Shown here one piece after another: positions 14,181-59,573 of a stretch of 64,000 nt of DNA; position 1 is the first letter of the stretch; each line of letters starts with the position of its first letter. Below the pieces are notes generated by a model. It had not been told where the DNA came from and did no database searches. It saw nothing but the letters and a program-made list of their open reading frames with translations. Source of the DNA: Halichondria panicea (Eukaryota > Porifera > Demospongiae > Suberitida > Halichondriidae); NCBI RefSeq assembly GCF_963675165.1, contig NC_087390.1, forward strand, positions 4,225,301 through 4,289,300, in the 5' to 3' direction. The translations under genes and the position numbers were made by a program.

Positions 14181-17100
14181 CTACTTGCACTCTTTTGGGT
14201 CCACACACACATCCCCAGACTCAACAGTACCGACAGAACAAAAACAACCTGCAACAAAGAGTAGAGTCACAGCATGCATTTAAAACTACACAACAAAAAA
14301 TGCGAGGTCTGCAATAATTCTAAAGCCGCCGTAGATGGATCCTCATCTATATTCAACACACCTAGTACCAACCACCACCAACCAGTGTGGGCACTTATAC
14401 ATGTACAGTGAGTCTAGTCCAGATTACCGTACTGTACTCACCTTGCATACATTGCAGGGTGCAAACCGTGAGTTCATCTTTGTTGTCACAGGTCTTAGGA
14501 CAAGCTGAGCCACACTCCTGGTACACCTTCCCCTCGGGACATTGCTGTTCAGGTGACTCAGTCGGACACTCTTCCTCACTGACACACTTATTACCAAGCT
14601 CAATAGTGCCAGCAGGACAGAAGCAACCTGAAATAGAGAGTAAAAACTGAAAGGTTAAGGGCAGGTACATGTATCCTGGTTGACTATTTCATTTTTTGGG
14701 TAATGTTGTACCAACATAGTCATTGCAGGCATTTAGCCACAGATGTTTTGGGTACAAAATAGATGTTCACCTTGCACACACTGCAGAGTGCAAAACGTGA
14801 GTTCATCTTTGTTGTCACAGGTCTTAGGACAAGCTGACCCACACTCCTGGTACACCTTCCCCTCGGGGCATTGCTGTTCAGGTGACTCAGTCGGACACTC
14901 TTCCTCACTCACACACTTGTTATCAAGCTCAATAGTGCCAGCAGGACAGAAGCAACCTGAAAGCCCCAATGGTAGAAGGTAGGTAATCCAATAAAATTTG
15001 TACATGCACAAATTGTTGGTGTACATGCAGTCCAATCCAGATTATACTCACCTTGTACACATTGCGTGGTGCAAATGTTGAGGTCATCTTTGTTGTCACA
15101 GGTCGTTGGGCAAGCTGTCCCACACTCCTGGTACACCTTCCCCTCGGGGCATTGCTGTTGAGGTGGCTTAGTCGGACACTCTTCCTCACTCACACACTTA
15201 TCACCAAGCTCAATAGTGCCAGCAGGACAGAAGCAATCTGATATATAGAGTATAAAACAAGAGGTTAAGGGCATGTACATGTATCCTGGTAGACTATTTC
15301 ATTTTTTGGGTAATGTGGTACCAACACAGGCATTGCAGGCATTTAGTCACAGATGTTTTGGGTACAAAATAGATGCTCACCTTGCACACACTGCAGAGTG
15401 CAAAACGTGAGTTCATCTTTGTTGTCACAGGTCTTAGGACAAGCTGACCCACACTCCTGGTACACCTTCCCCTCGGGGCATTGCTGTTCAGGTGACTCAG
15501 TCGGACACTCTTCCTCACTCACACACTTTTTACCAAGCTCAACAGTGCCAGCAGAACAGAAGCAACCTGAAATGGAGAGTAAAACCTGTAAGGTCAAAGG
15601 TAGGTATCCCAATATTACATGGTCATAAAGGCACAGTGCCTAGCTATTTAAAAGCACAGTATGGTACGTATTATAATATGTACACGCGGAGTTAGAGTTG
15701 CATGTATAATATACACAAACATGTATCGATCTACATGTATACTATCTGGAGGCAAGTGTACAATTTTGGGCATTTTGTAGTGGTGGAGTGATGATAAAAC
15801 TTGAGTTGCATTTCTGTATGAAAAATGTCACTGAGTGCTCTTCAATATATCTGCTCACCTGGCACACATTGCAGAGTGCAAACGTTGAGGTCATCTTTGT
15901 TGTCACAGGTCGTTGGACAAGCTGTCCCACACTCCTGGTAAACCTTCCCCTCGGGGCATTGCTGTTCAGGTGACTCAGTCGGACACTCTTCCTGGCTCAC
16001 ACACTTGTTACCAAGCTCAATAGTGCCAGCAGGACAGAAGCAACCTGAAATAGAGAGTAAACATGATTGCAGGCATTTAGTCACAGATGTTTTGGGTACA
16101 AAATAGATGCTCACCTTGCACACATTGCCGAGTGCAAAACGTAAGTTCATCTTTGTTGTCACAGGTCTTAGGACAAGCTGTCCCACACTCCTGGTACACC
16201 TTCCCCTCGGGGCATTGCTGTTCAGGTGACTCAGTTGGACACTCTTCCTGACTTACACACTTGTTACCAAGCTCAACAGTGCCAGCAGGACAAAAGCAAT
16301 CTAAACGTTGAAAGGTATAGGTATCACAATGGTACGTGTACATTTCCTGAAGTCCTCTCAGTGACCATCAGATTGGAACAATATTCTGTGGATATGACTA
16401 CCGTATAGCAGGTAATTTTCATGGGGTAAAAAATTCGTTCAACTCGAAAAACGGTGGTATTCGTGAGTAAAAATTTCGTTTAGTCTCGTGGCTGCACTGC
16501 ATTCCTACGTTCCGGTAGCCACGCCTACGTTAAATTTCGTGGAGGTCAGCTTGCCTACAAAAATAACGAATATTTTACCCCACAAAAATTACCCGCTCTA
16601 CGGTACATTTACTAGATACTGGCCCATATAGGCTAGTGTCAGCTTTCACTTCGTTCAGATGATTAATTGTCATCCACACTGTTGCAGGCTGTGAGTCTTT
16701 TGTTAACATAGCGTAGCTGTCAGAATACTATCAGATGGGCTAGAAACCTTCAAATCGACTACTTCCTTTAATCCACTTCTGTTCGTTGTGACATTATTGT
16801 TTTACTGAGCATATACGATGTTATCCAAAGTTCCCAGTTTCTGGGGATTATGTGGCGCATGCGCAACCAGTCGATACCAGGCCCATCTTCAGTGCGGCCT
16901 GGGATCGAGGCTAATATTGAATGCATGATTGTCTTTCAGCCTAGTCTGCTCACCTGGCACGCATTGCTTTGTGCAAAAGGTGAGGTCATCTTTGTTGTCA
17001 CAGGTTTTTGGACAAGCTGTCCCACACTCCTGGTACACCTTCCCCTCGGGGCATTGCTGAGGCTGTTTAGTAACTGCAGTGGGAGCAGAGAATCACAAGT

Positions 17101-19846
17101 AATCGAGGAAGACAATAATTTCAATTCATTGTTGCACTAGAAATGTGAAGTAAATGTATACAGGAAATGCTCCTGAGTCAAATGTTGATCATCGATCTGC
17201 TTACAGATGCTGTGTGATGCTTCACCTGAAACACAAACACAGTTGTTTTGAATACAGATACATGCAAATTGAAAGCTAACACAAAACCATGTCTAAATAA
17301 TGTATGGAGTATATCTAATATTATATATACAGCCGTACATAAAAATCATACAGCAGCTCTCAAGAGTTAGAGGAAACTGTCAAAGAGAAACTAGGATTAT
17401 AATAATTACTTTTACGTACAAAAAACTGCCATAACAACCCCATCACTGGCAATCAAAATAACAAACTCCCAAGGGGCTTGAAACTTCTGAATAAACGACA
17501 ACCTCTCTATAAGCAAAGTGTCCATTGTTCTAAAGGTTTCATTGTATTTAGTACATACAGTGTACATGTACCTTTGCATTCTTTATTGCAATCATCCACA
17601 GTCTCAAAGTTGTTATTGTTCCCTCCACAGCCGCCATAAGTGAACATCTCACACTGTCGACTGGCATTGTAGTAGAACCTTGGGAGGATAGCTCTACACG
17701 GTCCAGGCTCGGCCGGTAGAGTACACACACTCTCCTCTGGTTGACAGCTCGCAGGACACTCTGTGTGCATGAGATGTGGGGGTGGTGGAGTGGTAATCTA
17801 CGCTGTTAGGTTAAGTGCAAGATGTGTAAGCGTCTGAGCAAGCTGAGAAATGGGTGAATGTTTGATGTATGTGAGAGGTGAGAGGATCTAGTGTATCAGA
17901 GCGATATATGCACAAGCTGATTGCTTCGGTTGATAAGCGTGTGGATACTTTAAGCGTATCTTAGGAGAGCAGAATGGGAGGGGACTAATGAACATTGAGT
18001 GAACATCTAACTAGTACATCAGTGTAGTTCATACAGCAAAAGAAACAGGAGGATTCTAGGCTTTTCTAGAAGGCTATATAGCTTTGCCGTTATCATTTGA
18101 AACAATTTCGACAAAGTAAACAGAGAGCTTTACCCGGCCTTATTAGCTTGGCAACAAGCACGTTACAGGCAAGCACTGATTTTTTTATATTTTTTAACTA
18201 CGAGGCTTAAAAACATTGTCATTGACTTTGATGAGAAATGTGATACCAGAACAAAGAGTGTTAGAATACTTATACAGAAACCACCACAGACCATGAGCAA
18301 GCAAAAACATTGTCACTGACTTTGATGAGAAATGTGATACCAGAACAAAGAGTGTTAGAATACTTATACAGAAACCACCACAGACCATGAGCAAGCAACC
18401 CTCAGGTAGCATTATATAAACCTAGCAGGCTAGCGTGGCAGGTGTCAATTGAGAGTAAACACCACAGTTGCAGTGCAACCTCAGTACTATGGTATATCTA
18501 ACTGCACATGCTGCCACTATAAGCTACATGCATGTAATGCATTTTTGCTCACCACATATCAGTTGTCTCCCAACAGCTAAATTGGATGTAGAAGGTCCAC
18601 AAGTGTCAGAAGGTGGGCTTTTCTTTCCCTTGAAGTAATAAATTGACACTTGTCTTCCTGAGTAGCTCACAGTAGCAGTTGACTTTGTTCTGATAACTGC
18701 CCTCAAATCGTCATGGCGATTTTGTTTTTGCTCCCGGTAATGTTCATTGTCCACGTATTTACCGCATGTTTCACCACACGCTAACTTGGCACTGAACCCA
18801 AAACTGACTCTTCGGTTCCTTGCTCCTAAACAAAACATCATCACAACAACAAAAATAATAATTAGGTCTTAGATAACAAATAAAGTAAATGACATGCTAA
18901 AACAGTATAATTCATGCATGGGTAGAATGATTGTAGTACAGCATGCGTGAACACGAAACCGAGTAGAAATTGGTGGTTTATAAAAGAAACTAGCTACCAC
19001 AAGCTTAAGCTAAATTAAGAGCAAAAACGAAAAAGCTGTATATTTTATATTTTGTTTACCATGATTGCTACAGCTGACCTCCTGCAGGTCATACAGTTTG
19101 CACTTCTCGAAGGGGACCTGGTAATTGCTTGCAATTCGCTCAGTCAGGAACTGTGAGAATGCACTATTGAGCTTCTCACTGGTAGCATTGCACAAGGACA
19201 GTCGCGACACACCTCTCACACCTCCTTGTATATGTACCGTAGAAACAGACTGGGGGAGGCATCGTGAGTCTGAAAGTTTATAACAAAATATTTATGATTC
19301 TACAATAATTTCTAACAAAGGCGATCTTAGCACCAACTTAAACAATCTAATTTATTGGCTCTAATTGTGATTGTGCGCCAAATGAAGCCACCACAGCTAT
19401 TTATTGCATTTTCACCATGGTCGTCACTCTAAATAGGTGCCAGTTTGAGGCTGATGTATATTTCTCCGTTCTATTTGTGTACCAAGAAAAAATTTAATTT
19501 TGTTTGTGGCGCCTTTGTTAGACTTTTACAGTACGAATCTATAATTATGGTATCTACTAGATATATTATCACGAACACAAGGGATGTATATACGTGCCCT
19601 CGGACATCGTGCTTTTAATTGCTCCCCAAATTAGTCTTGGTATTTTATATAGGTGGAATCTATAATTATATGTACATCAGACATAAATTTGGCACTAATT
19701 AATTGATGCTGACAAAAATTTATCATAAATTCTGCTGATTATTTATTTTGTACATATTACACCATAGATAAACGAGCCCTACCAGAATTTTGTCCTTGTA
19801 CATAGCACCAGAGAGCAAGGAACATAAGAGAAACCAGCAGCTTCAT
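14181..19846 (-). CDS. Secreted multi-TIL/Kunitz protease inhibitor
   Basis: Thirteen exons, all joined in phase 1, encode about 686 residues: 19846-19783, 19269-19060, 18825-18553, 17760-17572, 17225-17205, 17073-16954, 16300-16115, 16044-15859, 15566-15381, 15237-15052, 14956-14771, 14627-14442, 14248-14181. The ATG at 19846 starts a signal peptide ([18 protein letters not shown]). Exons 2-3 encode a Cys-containing domain I do not recognise. Exon 4 is a complete Kunitz/BPTI domain ([25 protein letters not shown]), with Arg after the second Cys at the expected P1 site, suggesting trypsin-like targets. The rest makes seven trypsin-inhibitor-like (TIL) Cys-rich domains. Each 186-bp exon carries the C-terminal half of one TIL ([15 protein letters not shown]) and the N-terminal half of the next ([12 protein letters not shown]). 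It probably acts extracellularly in defence or matrix protease control. Confidence 0.88.
14442..16300 (-). repeat. Tandem array of six 186-bp TIL exons
   Basis: Six exons (starts 16300, 16044, 15566, 15237, 14956, 14627) are each exactly 186 bp, phase 1 at both ends, and nearly identical in sequence. Pieces of intron are also shared: the block ending in TTTTGGGTACAAAATAGATG recurs at about 14745, 15356 and 16091. This shows recent unit duplication. Confidence 0.9.
16401..16603. mobile_element. MITE with TA target duplication, 203 bp
   Basis: Inverted ends of about 38 bp (CCGTATAGCAGGTAATTTTC on the left, its diverged complement on the right) are flanked by TA at 16399-16400 and 16604-16605. 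It lies in an intron of the TIL/Kunitz gene. Related ends occur at 49064-49246. Confidence 0.82.
16631..16912. repeat. Dispersed repeat, copy A
   Basis: It shares blocks with 30641-30821: GGCTAGTGTC, TCATCCACACTGTTGCAGG, GTGAGTC, GATACCAGGCCCATCT and a terminal GAGGCTA. The end CGGCCTGGGATCGAGGCTAA is identical to the arm end of the palindrome at 41413-41520, so the three are probably one non-autonomous family. Confidence 0.7.
18209..18396. repeat. 94-bp direct tandem duplication
   Basis: Two abutting copies (18209-18302 and 18303-18396) differ at about one position. They lie in an intron of the TIL/Kunitz gene between the third exon and the Kunitz exon. Confidence 0.9.
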
Positions 19847-20275: not shown

Positions 20276-23200
20276 TCAGTGATCGAGTTGAGTCTGACGT
20301 TGAGTCGCAGCTTTCAACAAAATTTGCTGCAAGGGAATTCACAATCAGCATAGACATAGTCACAAAAAATTTAAATTATGTTATTGTATACACGGCTTAA
20401 AAAAAGTAGTATAGTTAGTTAATAGACAATTATGTTTGCGTACATTGTTTGTGCACCTGATTATCTAATGCAGCCACCCAATGCACATTGTACTTTCAGA
20501 TGGATATAATTATAACTACGTATGTTGTATGAATAATTTATACGTACTTAATACTTCATACATAGAATATCTTACCAATGGCCGAAACTCCACTGAATCA
20601 ATTAGATTGAACTCATTCACAAAAAAATAGAAATGCTTGTGGCACAAAGTGAAGTCGTTTTTCTGCATTAATATTTTATTATGCAGGCCGATACACTTTA
20701 TTTATGAAGATCGATAAAAGTAATTATAATTATTGTACTCACTGTTTCAGACTCTGTGGAATTATCAAGATGGTGAGTAGCAGCATGGACAAGAACTCGA
20801 TACAGGTAGCACAGAATTGTCTTACAAGCAGAAGAAAAGGGTGGAGGAAATGTTTTCCCTACAAAATACCAGAAAAAAATTCAATTTGCCACAAAATTAA
20901 TGCTTCATGAAATGAAAGCACCGCAGGTGTTGATGCCACAGTGGAAAGCTAGCTTCACATGAAGATAATAATTTTGCATCAATCTATATGCAAGCCATGC
21001 ATGGTTATAATTATAGTTACACATGTGCTGTCGGTGTATAAATCCTATAATTATTATAATTATACCCCACTAACTTACTTTGCTCAACAGGGAATACACG
21101 TCGATCTTCTGTCTGCCACTTAATCCAACCCATTAATCTGGCAACGTACTGCACCAAAACACATATAATTATAATTCATAGCACGCAGGTAATAAAAGAA
21201 AAAAGGAGGTTGTTTCAATACTGTATAATCTGGTTATTAAGCGCATGCGCCTAAATAGAGGAACGAGCAGACCTCTATGCACCTATTATCCGGATGCGCT
21301 TATAGCCATGCCCATGACGATTCAATGACGCATGCATGTGCACTTGTTGTCTGCACGAGGTCTATAGTCATATATCAGCAGTAACACAATTACTAGTGAA
21401 AGATACTTCACATCTATATAATTATATAAAGAAGTGTGGAGACCAATTGTTGGGCAGAAAACTGTGCAGAGAACCATGCGCCTTCTATCGAGGTTCTTGG
21501 TCTGCTAACTGCTATAGTATGCGCCTATTAGTCGATGTGCGCTTATTATACAGTACTTAGTTCATTAAAGTATAAGGCGTTTATACATACTCATGGAACT
21601 TAAGGCTTTAATTGAGAACGAAATGTTTTAGTAGTGCATGCATGGTCAGACATTCACTGGGACTGTAATTATACTCCAGGATCATAGCAGATCAAGAGTA
21701 GACGTCATCAAAGCAGCTTAATTGGAGTCTTACAAATAGGGCTAGGATCACCATGCAGAGTCAGCAGAGAAGCCAGAGTCTTCCCAACTAATTATGCAAA
21801 GGCAGCACTTATATAGGCATCACAAGGTGGGCAAACAGAATCACATGCAGACAAACAAAGAGACACATTGACCGACTAATTATGGACACCAAAGTGCCTC
21901 GGATTTAGGAAAGATGAAAGAGGAAAGAACATTATTCTTTGGGAGGGTATGATAGCTAGGTAATAATTATTGTATTATTGACAAAACTTGCTTCTTTTGC
22001 TGGGAGAGATACTGATTGTGTCCACTGGGTATCTGTCCATAAGTACTCATCTTTATGCCATCCAGACATTGTTGGGCATGTGCAATCCCTGCAAACTGAT
22101 TTAAAGACTGCTAAGACTCGGTGTGAAAAAGTGACCACATTCACAGCTATCCAGCTGTTCCGATCCATATCTTTAGGGCACTTTACTGCCAATTTTGGGT
22201 CGAATTCAGGGTTTTGAGCAGCCTAGAGAATTTGTGGCTCGATTAATATTTATTGCTATGTAAAAGGCTGGATGAACCTCACAAAGGTTCATAAACTATA
22301 CCTTCTCACTGAGATATATCTTACCTCCTGAAGTTCTGTTTGATACGTTGATGAAGCCCATTTCTTCTCTAACACCTTATGTACATGTGCACCATTAGAA
22401 GGAGGTTTCTTAGTATTACGAGATTCACCAAGTATTATCTGAAAACAGGTAATAAACAAATGCAGGGTATAGAGATCCGGATCAACGTATACCTGTGAGA
22501 GCAGAAATTTCACTAGCAATCTCCCAGCCATACCAACTCCCAGGTGCCTACAATCAGTTTCAGACAAGAGGACAAAAGATGCACCAGTGAATCCTTCCGC
22601 TATTAGGTATGTAGTACGTGTGTGTGGTGGGGGTTGTGATTACTGTGTGATAGCTGTGTGAGTGATAATAATTATACTTGCAGATGAGAATAAAACATTC
22701 TAAAGTGGCATTTTGGGTTGTCTAGGCCCATATAATTATACAGCTAGGGTTAATTGGAAACATACTCGTTTCTACAACAGAAGTCCAGGCACGTACACAA
22801 CAAGATCTATGGTGGCCCTGAGGTTCACACATGCTGGGTAGTAGGTTTTGACGTTTGAGGTTCCAGGCTCTGACCAATTCAACTGAGGCTATGCCAATTC
22901 GAGGGTAGAGTAATTCCCTTTTGTAGTCAGAACTTTTGCAGTCAACTAAGGCTACATCATGTATGATGAGTGTCATGATTATATATGAATTGATGTAGCC
23001 TTAGTTGAACTGCAAAAGCGAATTGCCTTACCTCGAATTAACGTAGCCTCAGTTGATTCGCCCACAGCCTCGAACCTCAAACCTATACTACCCAGTATGT
23101 GTGAACCTCAGGGCCACCGAAACAATCACTTGTCAAACATTTGAATATACAAAAATTTCCTCACCCAAAAACCTGTCACAATCTGTCTGACATAGTCCTC

Positions 23201-26200
23201 TACAGGATAACCATTCCTTCAATTCAATGCTTGACATAGACTTAGAGAATTCAGTGACTCGATCTTCCTCCATGATATGATCAGATGTGGTTGCAGGACG
23301 TGCATCGAGATAAGAACTATCAGTAGACTGCCGAAGATACTGCGCATTCCGATAAACACTGAGGCTCTTTTCACGAAACTTTCCACGTTGACCTATACAA
23401 ACAGTGTACTTATTAGTCTGATTATAATTTTATAATTTTACAAGAGCAATAATAATTGCAAGGGCATAAATTAAATTATGTTGTATACCTTCTAGAGTGT
23501 CAATCTCATCAACTATTTGCTGTCCTCCTAATCATAAGAGCAATTAATTATGAATTATGAATTATACAATTATGCAATGATGTTTCTTACCATACGCTCT
23601 TACTACTTCCCTAATGTCTGTTTTGGATGGCCCTTTAGTCAGCTGATCCTCGAGGCATCGTTTGTGTAATCCATTCAAATAAAATTTTTCTTTGCTGGAA
23701 AGGGATGTATCTCGATCGATGTTCTCTGGCTTATGAAGACGCTTATCCTTGAGCCATTTGATATCAAACCTGTTCGTGAATGAATGATATTTTTAATTTA
23801 TGTGTAAGTGAATGGTTTTGGTAACTGTATAATTATTTATGCACTTAAAATCATAAACTCACACCTGAGTGGTAGATGCATGCCTGCATGGCATTAATTC
23901 CTGTTCAGCTACAGATCAAGAATAGTTAGAGTGCTTACCAGTAGTGCATAATACTTTTGTGGTCATAGTTTGATATGACCACTTCACTCTCGGTGTTGCC
24001 CACTTTCTTCTTGAACCAGTCCACTCCAAAACCTGCCCTATTTTTATTCATCTTTGAGTCCTGACTCACACGAGAATCATTCTTCATCTTGTCAAGATCA
24101 AAGTGCTTTTCAAGAACATCCCAGAAGTCGGAGCGCTGATGTTCATGTTCTAGCCCCAGAGCATGTCCAAATTCATGGATGACCAAACTCTCTTGAAGTG
24201 AGTGGCAGTAACCACACAGAGAGAGCATCATAGTTGGCTTCATCAAATCCCTAACTGTCTGAGCATCTGTACCAATCATGGACCAACATCCTCCTGAATC
24301 TAATAAAAAGTTAATTAAGCATCACTATAACTCCAGCGTATCGTAATGCACATGCAATTATGTACGTACTCAATGCGTGAATCAATGGTAATGTAAAGAG
24401 GTATGTACGTATGCAGTTGATTTGTATTCTCAGAGATATTATACATGATTCATAGATCGAGACTCACCTGATAACTTGACACGTATATTAGCCGTTTGAG
24501 GAAATTCTGTCAGCACAAATTTTGGGATGTCGTCATACAAAGGAGACCTCCACGCACCGTTGGCCCATGCTAGAATAGTGTTAACACTCATAGTCTCACC
24601 TATGCACTTCCAGTCATCCAACAGCCTCGAATTGAAGAAATACACTTTAAGCACTTCATGACCTTTCCAGATTTTGTTCTTTGTGAGAAAAGCCCCAGCT
24701 GCACCTGCAATGCGGGTATCGTCTTCATCAGACTCTTCATCATCCGCACTTGTGTCAGGAGCAGGGGTACAGATCACTACCCTCTACAAAAATTAATATA
24801 ATAATGAACACTATAATAATTATAACAGCTAAATTACATTGTTTTACACATTTTAGAATCACAATACAGCAGTAGAAACCCACTAAATTCCCGATTGTGA
24901 TTAAGCCGGCAATAGCAAGTAGTGAAACACATAGAAGTTTTTAAAAGTTATTACTGAAGCAATTTTAAAGCCTCTGTTGAAAAGAAACAGGAAAGATTGG
25001 AGAGAATTCCAGGAAATCTACAAAACTGTCAAATTGCACAACAACTAGTACATAATTTGAAAGCTGGAATAAACAACTGTTAATTCCTGTGTCATTAGGT
25101 ATAGCAAGCTTATAAGCATGGCATTAGAACTGTAAATTAAACTGTTAATTCCTGTGTTTCAAGGTACATAGTTAAAAAAACATCAACATGCGCACTATAA
25201 CTTTCCGACATCACACCACAGCTATAGGGTGAAAAAGGCATTCATTGTTCTCATCAGCGCTGGGTTATACGAAAAGTATCAGTTACCGCATTGGCTGTCA
25301 CTATACAAGTATATATATTATATATAATACTTCAATATAATTATTAGACTTTATATAATGGTTAGATCATGCATGAGCATGGGGTATCTATGTTATAGCA
25401 TTCCAAGGTACACTATCACCAAAGATACCCAATGCGATCTCACTTTTCATTGGCTAACTATATAGACCTAGAAACATTACATGGATACCAAATGCACATT
25501 AATCAAATGACTTAGATCCCACTTTACACTGGTTTAATTAAAGTGTCCCCGCAATATATTGCTTCTCGATTGGACACATTACTCCGGATCAGGGTGTTGG
25601 CCAGACACAATACTCCAGAGTAACTTGTGCCTCTAGGACAAATTTCCATGGAGTAAAGTGTTCCCACTTGGTGTAACTTGTCCCCCCTGACACATAGGTA
25701 GTCTGATGGATCAGCCTGCCTTGGAACAGTCTGAGCACTTTTTTCTTTTGACAAGAGACAAACTAAAGCCATATTGTTGTCCATACACATACAATTCTCA
25801 TTATTATTTATGTCATCATGTCACATATCGATGTCATATGTACTTTACACAACTGCAGTGGAGACCAAACTTTTCATCCGTCAATGTGTTTCTAGATCTG
25901 CAATAAACTTATTTAGAGCAGAGAGAACATGGTGCAGCTTCGTTGGTGAGCTAGTGGACTATGCTCCAGAGTAAAATATGTCAAGGGGACACCTTACTCT
26001 AGAGTAATGTGTCAGGGGGGGGAAGTTACACCAAGTGGGGAGACTTTACTCCAGGGAAGTTTAATCTGAGGAACAAGTTACTCCTTAATTGAGCAATGAG
26101 CATGTGCATGAACTCAAGAGCAATTATGAACCTAAAATTAACAGCACCATTCATGATGAACCAATTGTTCCAATCTTTGACTCACCAATTTTTTTTTAGT

Positions 26201-26703
26201 AAGAGGATTCTTTGCTGTAGCAATATTCGTCTTTGCTGGAGTTTCACTGGACTGAGTGGGCTTCTCATAATTATGAAAGAAGGCAGAGAAATATGAGCTA
26301 CGTAGTATATATACCAACATTGCATATGCTAATTCTATCAAAATTAATGTATCGATCATACACTAGTATTTTGTGTGTGAACATAATGATGCATAATTAT
26401 TTATCAGTCTGAATCTTTTTCTTCAGAATTTGCATGCAGACATCAAACACAGTTAAGCATACGTACCTTCAATATGACTTTGATTCTAGACATGCTGCAC
26501 ACATTCACACCAGGGTTCAGGTCCAAATATTCCCCCGTTTGAGTACTGAAGATCTGAAGAAGAGAAATCTCACTACCTTGTATGATGTCAGCAAACTCTT
26601 TCTTGATTTCCGCAAGCAAGTTTTTCTGGCCCTCAATGAACTGAACACCCCTTTGCTGTTCGTTAACTGTAACAAGAACTTCCAAGGAAGTCATTGTATA
26701 CAT
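20276..26703 (-). CDS. Metzincin metallopeptidase - SAM - MOB fusion protein
   Basis: Fourteen exons joined in consistent phase encode about 740 residues: 26703-26467, 26263-26186, 24783-24468, 24299-23939, 23769-23591, 23527-23489, 23392-23165, 22599-22493, 22438-22325, 22222 to 22013 or 21983, 21148-21079, 20858-20743, 20662-20576, 20326-20276. Residues 1-79 look like a small beta-grasp-type domain (uncertain). Residues about 110-340 are a zinc peptidase: HEFGHALGLEHEHQRSD has HExxHxxGxxH, and SIMHY is the Met-turn. Residues about 455-515 fit a SAM domain (ELKEWLSCRGL, then TGASFVLLSETDCRHLGVG). The C-terminus is a MOB domain: DRNSWIAVNVVTF, CPTMSG, RVFPVE, KTILCYLYRVLVHAATHH, HKHFYFFVNEFNLID. 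MOB proteins normally bind NDR/LATS kinases. No signal peptide is seen, so the peptidase may be intracellular. The SAM-to-MOB junction (22493 to 22438) is phase 0 and the first MOB exon has no ATG, which favours one gene. The donor after exon 10 is unresolved. Confidence 0.78.
22811..23118. mobile_element. Foldback/MITE-like inverted repeat in SAM intron
   Basis: Arms of about 130-148 bp (22811-22958 and 22992-23118) are complementary apart from scattered changes, with outer ends GGTGGCCCTGAGGTTCACAC and inner ends at GGCTACATC/GATGTAGCC. The element is inside the intron that splits the SAM domain. No coding frame is present. Confidence 0.8.
25600..26091. mobile_element. Inverted-repeat element rich in GAGTAA/TTACTC
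   Basis: The segment about 25609-25693 pairs with about 26001-26091. Shared words include GGAGTAAAGT, CCACTTGGTGTAACTT and CCCCCCTGACACAT. The interior has further TTACTC/GAGTAA pairs. It lies in the intron before the peptidase exon 24468-24783. Confidence 0.72.
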
Positions 26704-27394: not shown

Positions 27395-28450
27395 TCAGTT
27401 TATTCCCGTCATGTTTTTCAGTGCTTCATCCCACTCCGAGAAATACTCAACCAGTCTATCACGTACTACTTTTTTGATGGGTGGATGGGGCCTTCCTTTG
27501 CTTTCCCCCATACAATGCAGATGGCTGTTGAAAGACTGGTCTTGAAAGCAATAAAATCCTCGTTTATGATTGAGTACAAAATTATCCTCTGTGAAGTAAG
27601 GATTAAGATTTAGACAGGATTCGAGTTTTTGAATTACTTGGTACGGATTTGAAATGAAGGCACCACCGTCAGCATAACACATCTGCTTTGCTCTGAAATG
27701 CTTCAACCAGCGCCGAAGATGATAAGCATAACAGCTTGTATTAATAAATTTTATGTTCAAGTTAAGTTCACCAGTTTCTAGTGTGACCAACGTATCAAAT
27801 CCTGGGAGTACAGATTCTCGACGTAAGTACCGCTGTACTTTCCATTCCAAATACTCTGACATTGCTCTGTCAATTGGATTACGTAGCATCACTACAAACT
27901 TGAGCTTAGAGACAGGAATTCCCAGAGAATCAGCACTTGCAATAATCCTTCCTGCAGCCTCAGGTACGATAACATAATCAGGACTTTTTTCGATAACAAA
28001 ACCGTTATGGGATGGTGGAGGTAAAGAGCTCAAATAGCTCTCTAATCCTTGATCGTAGTGCCTAGAAAAAAATCTCATCTCCGTTTCAGGACCAGACAGT
28101 TGGGGGTGGTATTTTAAGAACTCATATAATGTTTTTGTACCAGCTTTACCAAACCCGATAATCATAATACGAGGAAAATGACTTGCAAACGAAGATAATG
28201 AATTATTAAAAACAGTTGGTTTTGGATACTCTTTAGAATGGAAGCTCAATTGTGTATTTGTCAAATGCTGCTCAGTAGGGGTGTAATTTCCGTCGATAGC
28301 TATTGATGTAAGAGATAAAACAGTCTCCAATTCATGAGCACTTCGTACAGAGATCGCCAAATGTTGATTTGTACTAAGCAACACAATAACTAAGTATGAA
28401 CTGAGAACCAACAACAGGGCAGCAAAGTACCGTCCATATAGTTTGTACAT
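27395..28450 (-). CDS. Heparan-sulfate-type sulfotransferase (type II Golgi membrane)
   Basis: This single-exon gene encodes 351 residues. Such enzymes move sulfate from PAPS to glycosaminoglycan sugars in the Golgi lumen. The N-terminus has a signal anchor (YFAALLLVLSSYLVIVLL) followed by a stem. The 5'-phosphosulfate loop is IIGFGKAGTKTLYEFL and the 3'-phosphate motif is VVMLRNPIDRAMSEY. The order and the C-terminal Cys pair (GFYCFQ, HLHCMGESKGR) match the NDST/3-O-sulfotransferase group. The frame stays open to 28594, but TTTGCAG sits directly before GTATG at 28450, so upstream sequence is probably 5' UTR intron and ATG 28450 is the better start. Which position on the sugar is modified cannot be told from the sequence. 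Confidence 0.85.
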   Translation of the reverse strand: MYKLYGRYFAALLLVLSSYLVIVLLSTNQHLAISVRSAHELETVLSLTSIAIDGNYTPTEQHLTNTQLSFHSKEYPKPTVFNNSLSSFASHFPRIMIIGFGKAGTKTLYEFLKYHPQLSGPETEMRFFSRHYDQGLESYLSSLPPPSHNGFVIEKSPDYVIVPEAAGRIIASADSLGIPVSKLKFVVMLRNPIDRAMSEYLEWKVQRYLRRESVLPGFDTLVTLETGELNLNIKFINTSCYAYHLRRWLKHFRAKQMCYADGGAFISNPYQVIQKLESCLNLNPYFTEDNFVLNHKRGFYCFQDQSFNSHLHCMGESKGRPHPPIKKVVRDRLVEYFSEWDEALKNMTGIN

Positions 28451-28879
28451 ACCTGCAAATGACACAAATTTTAGATGTACATGCGCATACAAATATGCAT
28501 GCAACAAGTAATGAACTATGACAGTGTGGTACATGTGGTTTCGCTTGAACAAGTGGTGTACTATCAAAGAATCAATCGTAACTATAGTTGGCAAGCATCA
28601 CCCTATAACCTTTCTTTGTTCATCAACATCGCATCTTATTAGTTGTTTCACCCATCATCTCTAGCTAGCTAGCTACCTACATGTACTCATTAATTGCTGT
28701 GCATGATCTTTTCCTCTTCCTGCTGAAAAGAAGAGAGGGACTAAGTCTATAGACCATGAACAAACATTTTTTGCAATGCTCAGTTACCAAAAAGCATAAA
28801 AAACCAAGTGACCGAGAGAGCCGTGTATGTATACATCCATCACACCTCCCCATGCAGTGTAGATAATATTATCTCCATG

Positions 28880-56847: not shown

Positions 56848-57755
56848 TTGAGTGGCTTTTTAATTCGTGGTTTATTGGTGTGTTTGCAGTTTGAGAACAT
56901 AATTATGTTTACACACATGCTGCCATCTGGCATATTGTATGCATGTATGCTCTAGCTATTATCTATGTTACATGCAAGAGTGATTGACGCATGCATGATT
57001 GCAATAGCTGGATTTTTGTTGTGCATGTGGCCACCATGCATTGCACTATCACTATCTTCAAGAGTTCATTAGGAACTCTTGCTATCTTCTATCTGCCTGG
57101 GCCTCACCCTGGAATGTTTGTGGTTTATTTGGCATTTTGCTCAATCAAACTTGGTACTACTACAGATTCTCGGGCGCCTTATGCAGTGATCAGTACAACC
57201 CCTATTCTGTGGTATGCATGGACGTATACATAATTTATAACGAGCACTATAAATTATACAGTAGAACCTCAATTATCCAGCTTGCCTCGATGGAACCAAG
57301 GTGTCCGGATAATCGAGACTCTACTAAATATATCTACTCTCCCACTATCGGCATTTATTTAACTTTTGTAGGTACAAAAGCAATAAAATGTCATGCTTAC
57401 ACCACAATCAAAGTTAATGCTCCATAAACATTAATTAGCTTTATTTTATAACTTGTGCCAATATTACTCAACACATTCATAATGTGATTTTTGTTGCTAC
57501 ATGTACTATAGTATAGCGCTATAAAGCATGTAGATTGGATGCTGTTGTTAGGTACGTGTTTTTGTGCATGATTCCTCTAATATTCTGCACTTAAAAGAAC
57601 CCCACATACATTACATGTAACATGATACCTCTTTCTATAGCTTCCATATACTGGGTATTCAATTACAGTGAGGAATTTCACACAATTGAGCTATAGCCAT
57701 CATGTTACCTTCCAAGAAAGCAGTAGTAGCTCAGTTGTGATATTATGCTCAAATA
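56848..57755. other. Intergenic between GPR155 and tyrosinase
   Basis: No exon is supported. It contains a small pogo-like inverted repeat at 57259-57325. The open frames at 56991-57427 have no recognised features. Confidence 0.5.
57259..57325. repeat. Pogo/Tigger-like mini inverted repeat
   Basis: The left end CAGTAGAACCTCAATTATCC and the diverged right complement (GGATAATCGAGACTCTACT) form a 67-bp hairpin. It resembles the left end of the element at 34001-34205. Confidence 0.7.
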
Positions 57756-59573
57756 ATGGCTCTGAAGTACAGCTTTGTAATATGTTTGCTTTTCTATTGT
57801 AGAAATACATATAGCCAGTTTCCAGCAGTTTGCAATACTCAAGAAAATCTGCAATCCAAAACCTGTTGCCCAAATGTTTGTGGAGGACCTACCAGAGGAA
57901 TCTGCACCAACTTTACTAAAGAAATTACCTCCCAATGGGGAAAAGCTTCTCCTGACATTGTAAACGTAATGCGTGATTCTCCTAATAATCCACTGAAAGG
58001 GTCTGTTGATTCTCGTTTTCTTTGGCCAACTCTTGTTTTTGACACGTTTTGTAATTGTAGTGGCAAGTTTGGTGGCTACGACTGTATGGAGTGTGAATTT
58101 GGTTGGACAGGAGAAGATTGTCAAACACGAAAGACACCTGTTGTGCGTCATAGTTTCCATAGCCTGTCAGACATAAAAAAGAAAGAGTTTGTTGAAGCTA
58201 CATTACTGTTAAAGAATGAAATAGGACAATGGAGTGTTATTGTAGAGGAACCTGCTAACTATTCAAGTAACCCCGCCACACTACAGAATGTCAGTACCTA
58301 TGATTTCTTCACTTTCTTGCACTACTTTGCCACGAAAGGATCAGAAGTAAATTCGAAATGTAAAAAACTATTACACCAGGACCTTGCTATTGACTTTGCC
58401 CATGATGGCCCTGTTTTCCCTGTTTGGCACAGACGATACTTGCTAACTGTTGAGAAAGAGTTTCAACGAATAATGAATAACCAATTGTTTGGGCTCCCTT
58501 ATTGGCCATGGGAACAAAACGATAAATCTCCATTTGACAAAAAGTACTATGGCATACCATCCAGCACTCCAGTTGGTAAAAATGTAACTGGTGACTCAAT
58601 CAATTCTGCCAAGTGGAATACCATTTGTGATCAAAATTGGTGGAACTTAAGCCGATCTGATGACTGTGCTCTAGAATGGAAAGTTTGCAATCCAGCGATA
58701 GAATTACAATCGGCTAGATCGTTACAAAGAGGGCAAACTAACCTCAACTTTACTTATCTTCCCCACCTGCTTGAAGTAAAAATGGCTCTTGCTGCTCCAT
58801 TGTATGATGTTCCTGATTCCAATGGTATTTATAGTGAAAATAGTCCTCGTTCTAGCTTCAGAAATCGATTGGAAGGATGGATCCAGATTTGTTCAGCAGT
58901 AAATTGTGTTGGAAGACGTGGACCCACTTGTATGCATAACACTATCCACACTTGGGTTGGTGGTCACATGTACGCTCGGTCTTCAACAATTAATGATCCC
59001 GTATTCAATATTCACCACTGCAACACCGATCGCATTTTTGAGAGCTGGATAAAGCGATTCAATGCATCCAGTCTCCCACCTTATGTTCCTGAGCAGGGTG
59101 GGCATCCTGGAAAGAACAAAGATGACTACATTGTACCTTTCTTTCCAGTAATAAAAGCTGGCAAACAATACTCCAACCGAGGCTCTGAAGAATGGGGTTA
59201 CGTGTATGATGAGTTAGTTGTTGCGGACATTGATGACAAAACAATTTTAGACTGCAGCATGGACATACGCAGTTGTCTTCGCTGTGATGCTAACGGAACA
59301 TGCACATCGCCCTGGGGCTGTAGCAATCAAACCTGCCCTTCACCAGTCATAGCATCAATTCAGGGTGAGGAGGAGGCCACTGATATTACTGTAACATTGA
59401 ATGATGATGATGCACTTGCATTGGGTTTGGGTCTTGGATTAGGACTCAGGTTTCCATTAATCATCATTATGATTTTTATTATTGGCTCAATAGTGAAAAT
59501 GATTCGATCAAGGAGACATAGCGGACAGAGTGTGGTAACACCACTTTTACGTCGAAATGGAGAGACAAATTGA
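57756..59573 (+). CDS. Membrane tyrosinase, intronless
   Basis: This 605-residue type I membrane protein of the tyrosinase family is a dicopper phenol oxidase, acting in melanin or quinone-tanning chemistry. It has a signal peptide (YSFVICLLFYC), a Cys-rich EGF-like N-terminal part (GKFGGYDCMECEFGWTGEDC), and the copper-A ligands His189, His216 (FAHDGP) and His225 (VWHRRYL). The copper-B ligands are His394 and His398 (MHNTIHTWVGGHM) and His420 or His421 (NIHHCNTDRIF). The C-terminus has a GLGLGLGLRF stretch, a membrane span (PLIIIMIFIIGSIV) and a short basic tail, so the catalytic part faces the lumen or outside. The layout matches vertebrate tyrosinase/TYRP rather than secreted molluscan types. 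The lack of introns, unlike neighbouring GPR155, suggests a retrocopy origin or long-standing intron loss. Confidence 0.92.
   Translation: MALKYSFVICLLFYCRNTYSQFPAVCNTQENLQSKTCCPNVCGGPTRGICTNFTKEITSQWGKASPDIVNVMRDSPNNPLKGSVDSRFLWPTLVFDTFCNCSGKFGGYDCMECEFGWTGEDCQTRKTPVVRHSFHSLSDIKKKEFVEATLLLKNEIGQWSVIVEEPANYSSNPATLQNVSTYDFFTFLHYFATKGSEVNSKCKKLLHQDLAIDFAHDGPVFPVWHRRYLLTVEKEFQRIMNNQLFGLPYWPWEQNDKSPFDKKYYGIPSSTPVGKNVTGDSINSAKWNTICDQNWWNLSRSDDCALEWKVCNPAIELQSARSLQRGQTNLNFTYLPHLLEVKMALAAPLYDVPDSNGIYSENSPRSSFRNRLEGWIQICSAVNCVGRRGPTCMHNTIHTWVGGHMYARSSTINDPVFNIHHCNTDRIFESWIKRFNASSLPPYVPEQGGHPGKNKDDYIVPFFPVIKAGKQYSNRGSEEWGYVYDELVVADIDDKTILDCSMDIRSCLRCDANGTCTSPWGCSNQTCPSPVIASIQGEEEATDITVTLNDDDALALGLGLGLGLRFPLIIIMIFIIGSIVKMIRSRRHSGQSVVTPLLRRNGETN

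Follow-up and report, generated by a model that had tools for sequence, protein, structure and literature searches.

A probable chimeric gene joining an astacin-like peptidase, a SAM-like domain and a MOB3-like domain in Halichondria panicea

Introduction

MOB proteins are regarded as small stand-alone adaptors. A first-pass annotation of a 64,000-nucleotide stretch of the Halichondria panicea genome (here called the window; contig C14, 4225301-4289300), made from the sequence alone, read a zinc peptidase, a SAM domain and a MOB domain as parts of one protein, and took the MOB domain to be a co-activator of NDR/LATS kinases. The locus raises the question of whether one gene encodes all three domains, where the MOB domain came from, and what it might do when joined to a protease. 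No described MOB-peptidase fusion was found among the listed matches of the literature searched, which was available in partial text. The component domains are of known kinds; their combination, and the exon-level capture that may have produced it, are apparently new, at least to us.

Results

The annotated region holds an uninterrupted frame of 14 exons and 737 residues (738 codons with the stop) on the minus strand of the window, from 26703 to 20276; the exons below all lie on this strand. Twelve of its 13 introns are GT-AG and one is GC-AG, it contains no internal stops and no frameshifts, and the phases agree at 13 of 13 exon joints. The placement of peptidase, SAM and MOB in one continuous frame was thus confirmed as an observation. 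From N- to C-terminus the order is an unnamed N-terminal domain, an astacin-like zinc peptidase, a weakly matching SAM domain and a complete MOB domain.

Exon 1 (26467..26703) carries the start codon and the first of these, a further alpha/beta domain of about 79 residues (aa 1-79) whose homologues precede sister peptidases. Exon-1-like exons were recovered by similarity clustering at six other loci and served as rows of a model of the N-terminal domain. The domain has no Pfam match; a weak profile match leads to the N-terminal domain of BILBO1 (E 0.0033), and a single-sequence structure model of low confidence (mean pLDDT 67.7) gave no fold match at E <= 0.001. Inspection of exon 1 by eye showed no hydrophobic signal and no signal peptide. 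Exon 2 (26186..26263) is a linker.

The peptidase follows an acidic linker in exon 3 (24468..24783), which also encodes the N-terminal half of the metzincin; exon 4 (23939..24299) provides the metzincin core, with the zinc motif at 24177-24145 and the Met-turn SIMHYW, and exon 5 (23591..23769) the family-conserved C-terminal part of the module, ending at a phase-1 donor. Pfam recovers an Astacin match at aa 201-330 (E 1.1e-9; PF01400, 38.7 bits against a cut-off of 22.5), and in the PDB the peptidase best matches myroilysin, a bacterial enzyme (8.8e-7), and astacin (0.008). The zinc motif HEFGHALGLEHE is intact (aa 252-263) and the Met-turn is kept, both the HExxHxxGxxHE and the SxMHY motif being present. 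Astacins of family M12A are marked by a glutamate after the third zinc histidine and by a Met-turn with tyrosine, and are typically secreted zymogens with a signal peptide and a propeptide. The fusion peptidase shares its zinc motif and Met-turn with astacin/myroilysin-type metallopeptidases; unlike M12A enzymes, it is preceded by about 200 residues in which no signal peptide is apparent by eye, and is joined to adaptor domains. Scanned with the peptidase core, prokaryote genomes gave 68 loci, among which the better matches came mostly from Pseudomonas, Accumulibacter and Variovorax, and viral contigs gave 5.

A short linker, exon 6 (23489..23527), leads to exon 7 (23165..23392), where 39 linker codons precede an in-frame ATG at 23273 and the first half of the SAM domain; exon 8 (22493..22599) encodes the second half and leaves in phase 0. 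Six exons then form the MOB region: exon 9 (22325..22438), which lacks an ATG; exon 10 (21992..22222), with the zinc cysteines and the GC donor; exon 11 (21079..21148); exon 12 (20743..20858), with the zinc histidines and a degenerate phosphopeptide pocket; exon 13 (20576..20662); and exon 14 (20276..20326), with the C-terminal tail and the stop. Exons 10 to 13 make up the MOB core. Domain similarity bore out the annotation fully for MOB and only weakly for SAM. The former is recovered by Pfam as Mob1_phocein at aa 563-721 (PF03637, E 1.1e-42); the latter has only a SAM_2 match below threshold (E 0.06; 14 bits, cut-off 20.5), which a scan of the whole protein does not return. A five-row SAM profile built from the family gave 10 PDB matches with E no higher than 0.1, headed by MAP3K20 (2.4e-4) and DGK-delta (8.1e-4); the others are two L3MBTL3 sequences, ANKS6, BICC1, two SHANK3 sequences and two de novo designed proteins. 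The reconstruction of exon boundaries also upheld the phase-0 SAM-to-MOB junction, the lack of an ATG in the first MOB exon (the first Met of the MOB part lies in exon 10) and a MOB core complete to the stop codon, covering positions 10-170 of the 170 in PF03637.

MOB sequences occupy six places in the genome (28 segments): C16, C3:604 kb, a cluster at C6 2.47-2.55 Mb, C13, C3:4.06 Mb and the window. From characteristic features and the sequences, we take the first four to be MOB4-, MOB3-, MOB1- and MOB2-like, respectively; calling the C3:604 kb gene MOB3 is an assumption based on such features. A metzincin lies upstream on the same strand at two of the six, the window and C3:4.06 Mb. The window MOB is 42.8% identical to MOB3 over 173 columns, more than to the MOB at C3:4.06 Mb (locus L001; 41.1%) or to MOB1 (35.3%). 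In a FastTree of seven MOB sequences, in which the MOB3 row holds one extra Gly and the MOB1 row probably one extra Ser at exon joints, the window and L001 are joined (0.974) beside MOB3 (0.975). An origin from MOB1 was rejected: the tree favours MOB3, and the introns of MOB1 lie elsewhere, judging by eye from the breaks between tblastn segments. The MOB1-like copies themselves, about eight in number, form a tandem array (C6:2473334-2551493) in which, at the threshold used, only one has the C-terminal segment; the other copies may therefore be truncated.

Exon structure points in the same direction as the tree. The MOB3 gene (C3:603000-606500) has seven exons, the first of which encodes MASMFFSSKQR, holds the ATG and leaves in phase 0. 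Window exons 9-14 have the same entry phases as MOB3 exons 2-7 (0,0,0,1,0,0; six of six), and four of the six, exons 11-14, start at alignment columns identical to those of MOB3 exons 4-7. Exon 10 starts three columns off MOB3 exon 3, within a gapped stretch, and exon 9 agrees in phase with its counterpart, MOB3 exon 2, although the residues at its start are not alignable. Three internal exons, window exons 11, 12 and 13 and MOB3 exons 4, 5 and 6, are equal in length (70, 116 and 87 nt). A counterpart of MOB3 exon 1 is missing from the window gene. With 43% identity, the exon phases, and the zinc C-x4-C and H-x4-H in common, the window MOB is MOB3-like and looks like a captured MOB3; unlike MOB3, it has no start exon and is read on from SAM. 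The simplest reading of these sequences is that MOB3 exons 2-7 were captured without the start exon, and the first MOB exon would lack an ATG because that exon was left out.

Among the loci of the peptidase family, only L001 (C3:4055500-4065400) has a MOB besides the window. Its N-terminal domain, peptidase, SAM and MOB have the order and strand of the window gene. Apparent frameshifts in exons 3 and 5, stops in exon 4 and in SAM, and a Tyr at the first zinc cysteine of MOB mark L001 as a decaying copy, judging by its sequence. With the acceptor tested, the first MOB exon of L001 can be read only in phase 2, and so lends no support to an in-frame SAM-MOB joint there. As the domains follow each other alike at both loci, and the two MOBs group together beside MOB3, there was probably a single fusion, duplicated later. 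The shared order thus predates the duplication; it says nothing for a working protein.

The doubtful junction proved to be that between peptidase and SAM, not the SAM-MOB junction on which the first-pass annotation had placed the risk. The joint of exons 6 and 7 is the least certain of all. Splice-site scoring left the exon 7 acceptor unsupported: at 2.2 bits it is equalled or exceeded by 30% of 148 background AGs, six of 25 assumed acceptors score below it, and a stronger AG (5.4 bits) lies at 23417, in a different phase. The exon 6 donor (3.1 bits) ties with that of exon 8 as the lowest of 22. Exons 6-7 are only weakly alike between the window and L001 (61 or 242 of 2000 shuffles reach the likeness). 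Upstream of the exon-7 ATG, the 39 codons (117 nt) have a coding score of 0.146 per codon, against means of 0.155 in coding windows and 0.012 in introns and flanks; 3.5% of 4357 overlapping intron/flank windows score as high as this 5' part, and 0.67% are also open. Since stretches before other, real starts can reach an equal score (up to 0.150 among 13), it is openness, rather than codon score, that discriminates. The frame is open for 52 codons before SAM in the window and for 50 in L001, where that stretch has no in-frame ATG. Four frames that begin with SAM have 3, 5, 6 and 6 open codons there; across 14 other start positions, which include these four and two alternatives in window exon 1 and leave out a fifth SAM-first frame, that of L010, cut by the end of its locus, the longest upstream open run is 35 codons.

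These observations bear on whether the window holds one gene or two. We consider it likely that there is one chimeric gene, in which an N-terminal domain, an astacin-like peptidase and SAM were joined to a captured MOB3 and later duplicated; the MOB side of the join is well supported by the sequence comparisons, the enzyme-SAM side less so. Its main competitor, which we think unlikely while allowing it real weight, is a pair of adjacent genes, one of N-terminal domain and peptidase, terminated where intron 5 or 6 is read through, and one of SAM-MOB3 starting at the ATG at 23273; MOB3 would then have been captured by a SAM gene and not by a peptidase. Retention of intron 5 or 6 does bring an in-frame stop, at 23562 or 23430, and the weak exon 7 acceptor and exon 6 donor also suit a division here. 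So do related loci: at L003 and L009, in the cluster at C3:1.4 Mb, a Death frame stops and, about 205 and 172 nt on, a SAM-first frame begins at an ATG of its own, and the SAM-first frame of L010 follows a peptidase and has the same ATG context as 23273 (ATCATGG). SAM-first frames with their own ATG occur in the C3:1.4 Mb cluster, and SAM-MOB could therefore be a second gene in the window. Against this division stand the open runs of 52 and 50 codons in the window and L001, compared with 3-6 at four SAM-first frames, the lack of an ATG before SAM in L001, the coding-like 5' part of exon 7 and the agreement of phases.

A division between SAM and MOB, the alternative that the annotation itself had raised, is extremely unlikely, and was rejected on the open frame and the MOB3 exon match. 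The literature would favour a separate MOB gene, in that MOBs are described as globular scaffold proteins in the available part of PMC6627106, and the partial texts searched mention no fused or multidomain MOB. The frame nevertheless runs from SAM to MOB without a stop whether intron 8 (54 nt) is spliced or retained, in the latter case staying open into the first MOB exon; neither intron 8 nor exon 9 contains an in-frame ATG; and L001 shows the same order. The missing MOB3 start exon likewise makes a separate gene less likely. That the window gene is an unexpressed relic, as L001 appears to be, we regard as very unlikely. The decay of L001 and the loss of interaction residues from the window MOB would fit such a relic, against which stand 738 lesion-free codons, GT-AG or GC-AG pairs at 13 of 13 introns, and the retention of catalytic and zinc residues.

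The residues of the window MOB speak to its role. All four of what we take to be the structural zinc ligands of MOB1A (C79, C84, H161 and H166) are aligned in it. In the available excerpts of published work, MOB1 holds LATS1 through E49, E51, E55 and D63 (PMC4917820), MOB1-E55A serves as a LATS-unbinding form (PMC7035326), and phosphopeptides are held by K153, R154 and R157 (PMC5461540); human MOB3s bind MST1, via conserved basic residues, and no NDR/LATS kinase (PMC6627106). At positions 49, 51, 55 and 63 the residues are K,M,S,T in the window MOB and K,V,H,N in L001, as against D,E,D,D in the MOB3 of this genome, so the acidic LATS1 contacts of the MOB1 type are absent from the window MOB; Asp at 50 and 52 is kept in all three. 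The phosphate triad (153, 154, 157) is C,Y,R in the window and T,R,R in both L001 and MOB3, and the window MOB thus lacks the K153, R154, R157 pocket for MST binding. The sequences suggest replacement of the contact acids in the fusion lineage and, in the window copy, additional erosion of the pocket. As the four acids are replaced in both copies, kinase co-activation by the window MOB is improbable. The interpretation first offered for the locus stands, therefore, as to the fused frame, the SAM-MOB phase and the MOB core; its NDR/LATS co-activator was rejected on these residues, in a domain that resembles the MOB3 type. A docking or targeting role is favoured, and a new docking surface, or a lid over the peptidase, is likelier than co-activation.

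Sister peptidases in the genome share the peptidase module of the window gene. With family models, whose Death rows came from five of the ten matched loci (two others being weak) and whose SAM rows came from all five, a Death-profile match was found at 10 of 20 sister loci and SAM at 5 of 20; Pfam places Death above its cut-off in four of eight Death-region stretches (best 1.4e-9). Neither the window gene nor L001 has a Death-profile match. SAM lies upstream of a peptidase in L003 and L010, and downstream of the peptidase in the window gene. Astacin-like peptidases of the family with Death domains occur at L003 and L007-L013 (C3:1.38-1.46 Mb and C6:1.91-1.94 Mb), some also with an N-terminal alpha/beta or SAM domain. 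At L016 and L017 (C7:4.93 and 4.96 Mb), a weak Death match precedes the peptidase, and both have a dynamin-like GTPase frame downstream. One sister peptidase (L005, 5169-5519) reads VVHQFGHALGLEH, with Gln for the catalytic Glu, and is therefore probably inactive.

Discussion

The favoured origin of the window gene would be a join, made through the phase-0 first intron of MOB3, in which MOB3 exons 2-7 came to follow the SAM exon in one gene of an expanded peptidase family; the chimera would later have been duplicated, and one copy is now decaying. A single mRNA would span all 14 exons, and its product would probably be intracellular. Within this protein, SAM may self-associate or target, and the MOB fold may serve as a docking surface bringing the peptidase to a partner, as a substitute for the Death domain that accompanies many of the sister peptidases. 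Because those sisters often have Death domains, a cell-death or immune setting is suggested, and the family would count as a candidate source of effectors in such pathways. It is improbable, if a degree less so than the relic, that MOB3 capture wired a cytosolic zinc peptidase of a Death-linked family into Hippo-type signalling, with MST-like apoptotic kinases, or partners of these, being docked to the protease, cut by it or used to switch it on, all within one polypeptide.

If the chimera is real, it would plainly exemplify the recruitment of a Hippo-pathway part, by exon shuffling, into an effector family that also uses Death and SAM domains, and the missing start exon and common phases would be a readable record of how the capture happened. 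The fusion gene also indicates that Death-linked astacin-like peptidases form a larger family in this genome. No astacin-Death protein is named in the titles and abstract openings among the matches listed. The lineage-specific Death/TRADD-N expansions of Amphimedon, in which Death-like adaptors are mixed with variable effectors (Kaur et al. 2021, PMC8195603), are a likely parallel in kind, the families here likewise being lineage-specific combinations of Death-like adaptor and variable effector. The enzymatic effectors named in section 10 of that paper are caspase, PNPase and HD, with no metallopeptidase and no MOB, unlike the metallopeptidase and MOB found here.

The neighbours of the fusion frame on the same strand are a frame with a sulfotransferase domain upstream (27398-28597) and, downstream, one that looks by eye like a secreted protein and starts near 19846. 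Elsewhere in the window, repeated cysteine-rich units resembling trypsin inhibitors and a Kunitz-like unit can be seen by eye at 14395-17797 (-), and a tyrosinase domain (Pfam, E 2.1e-35) lies at 57741-59570 (+).
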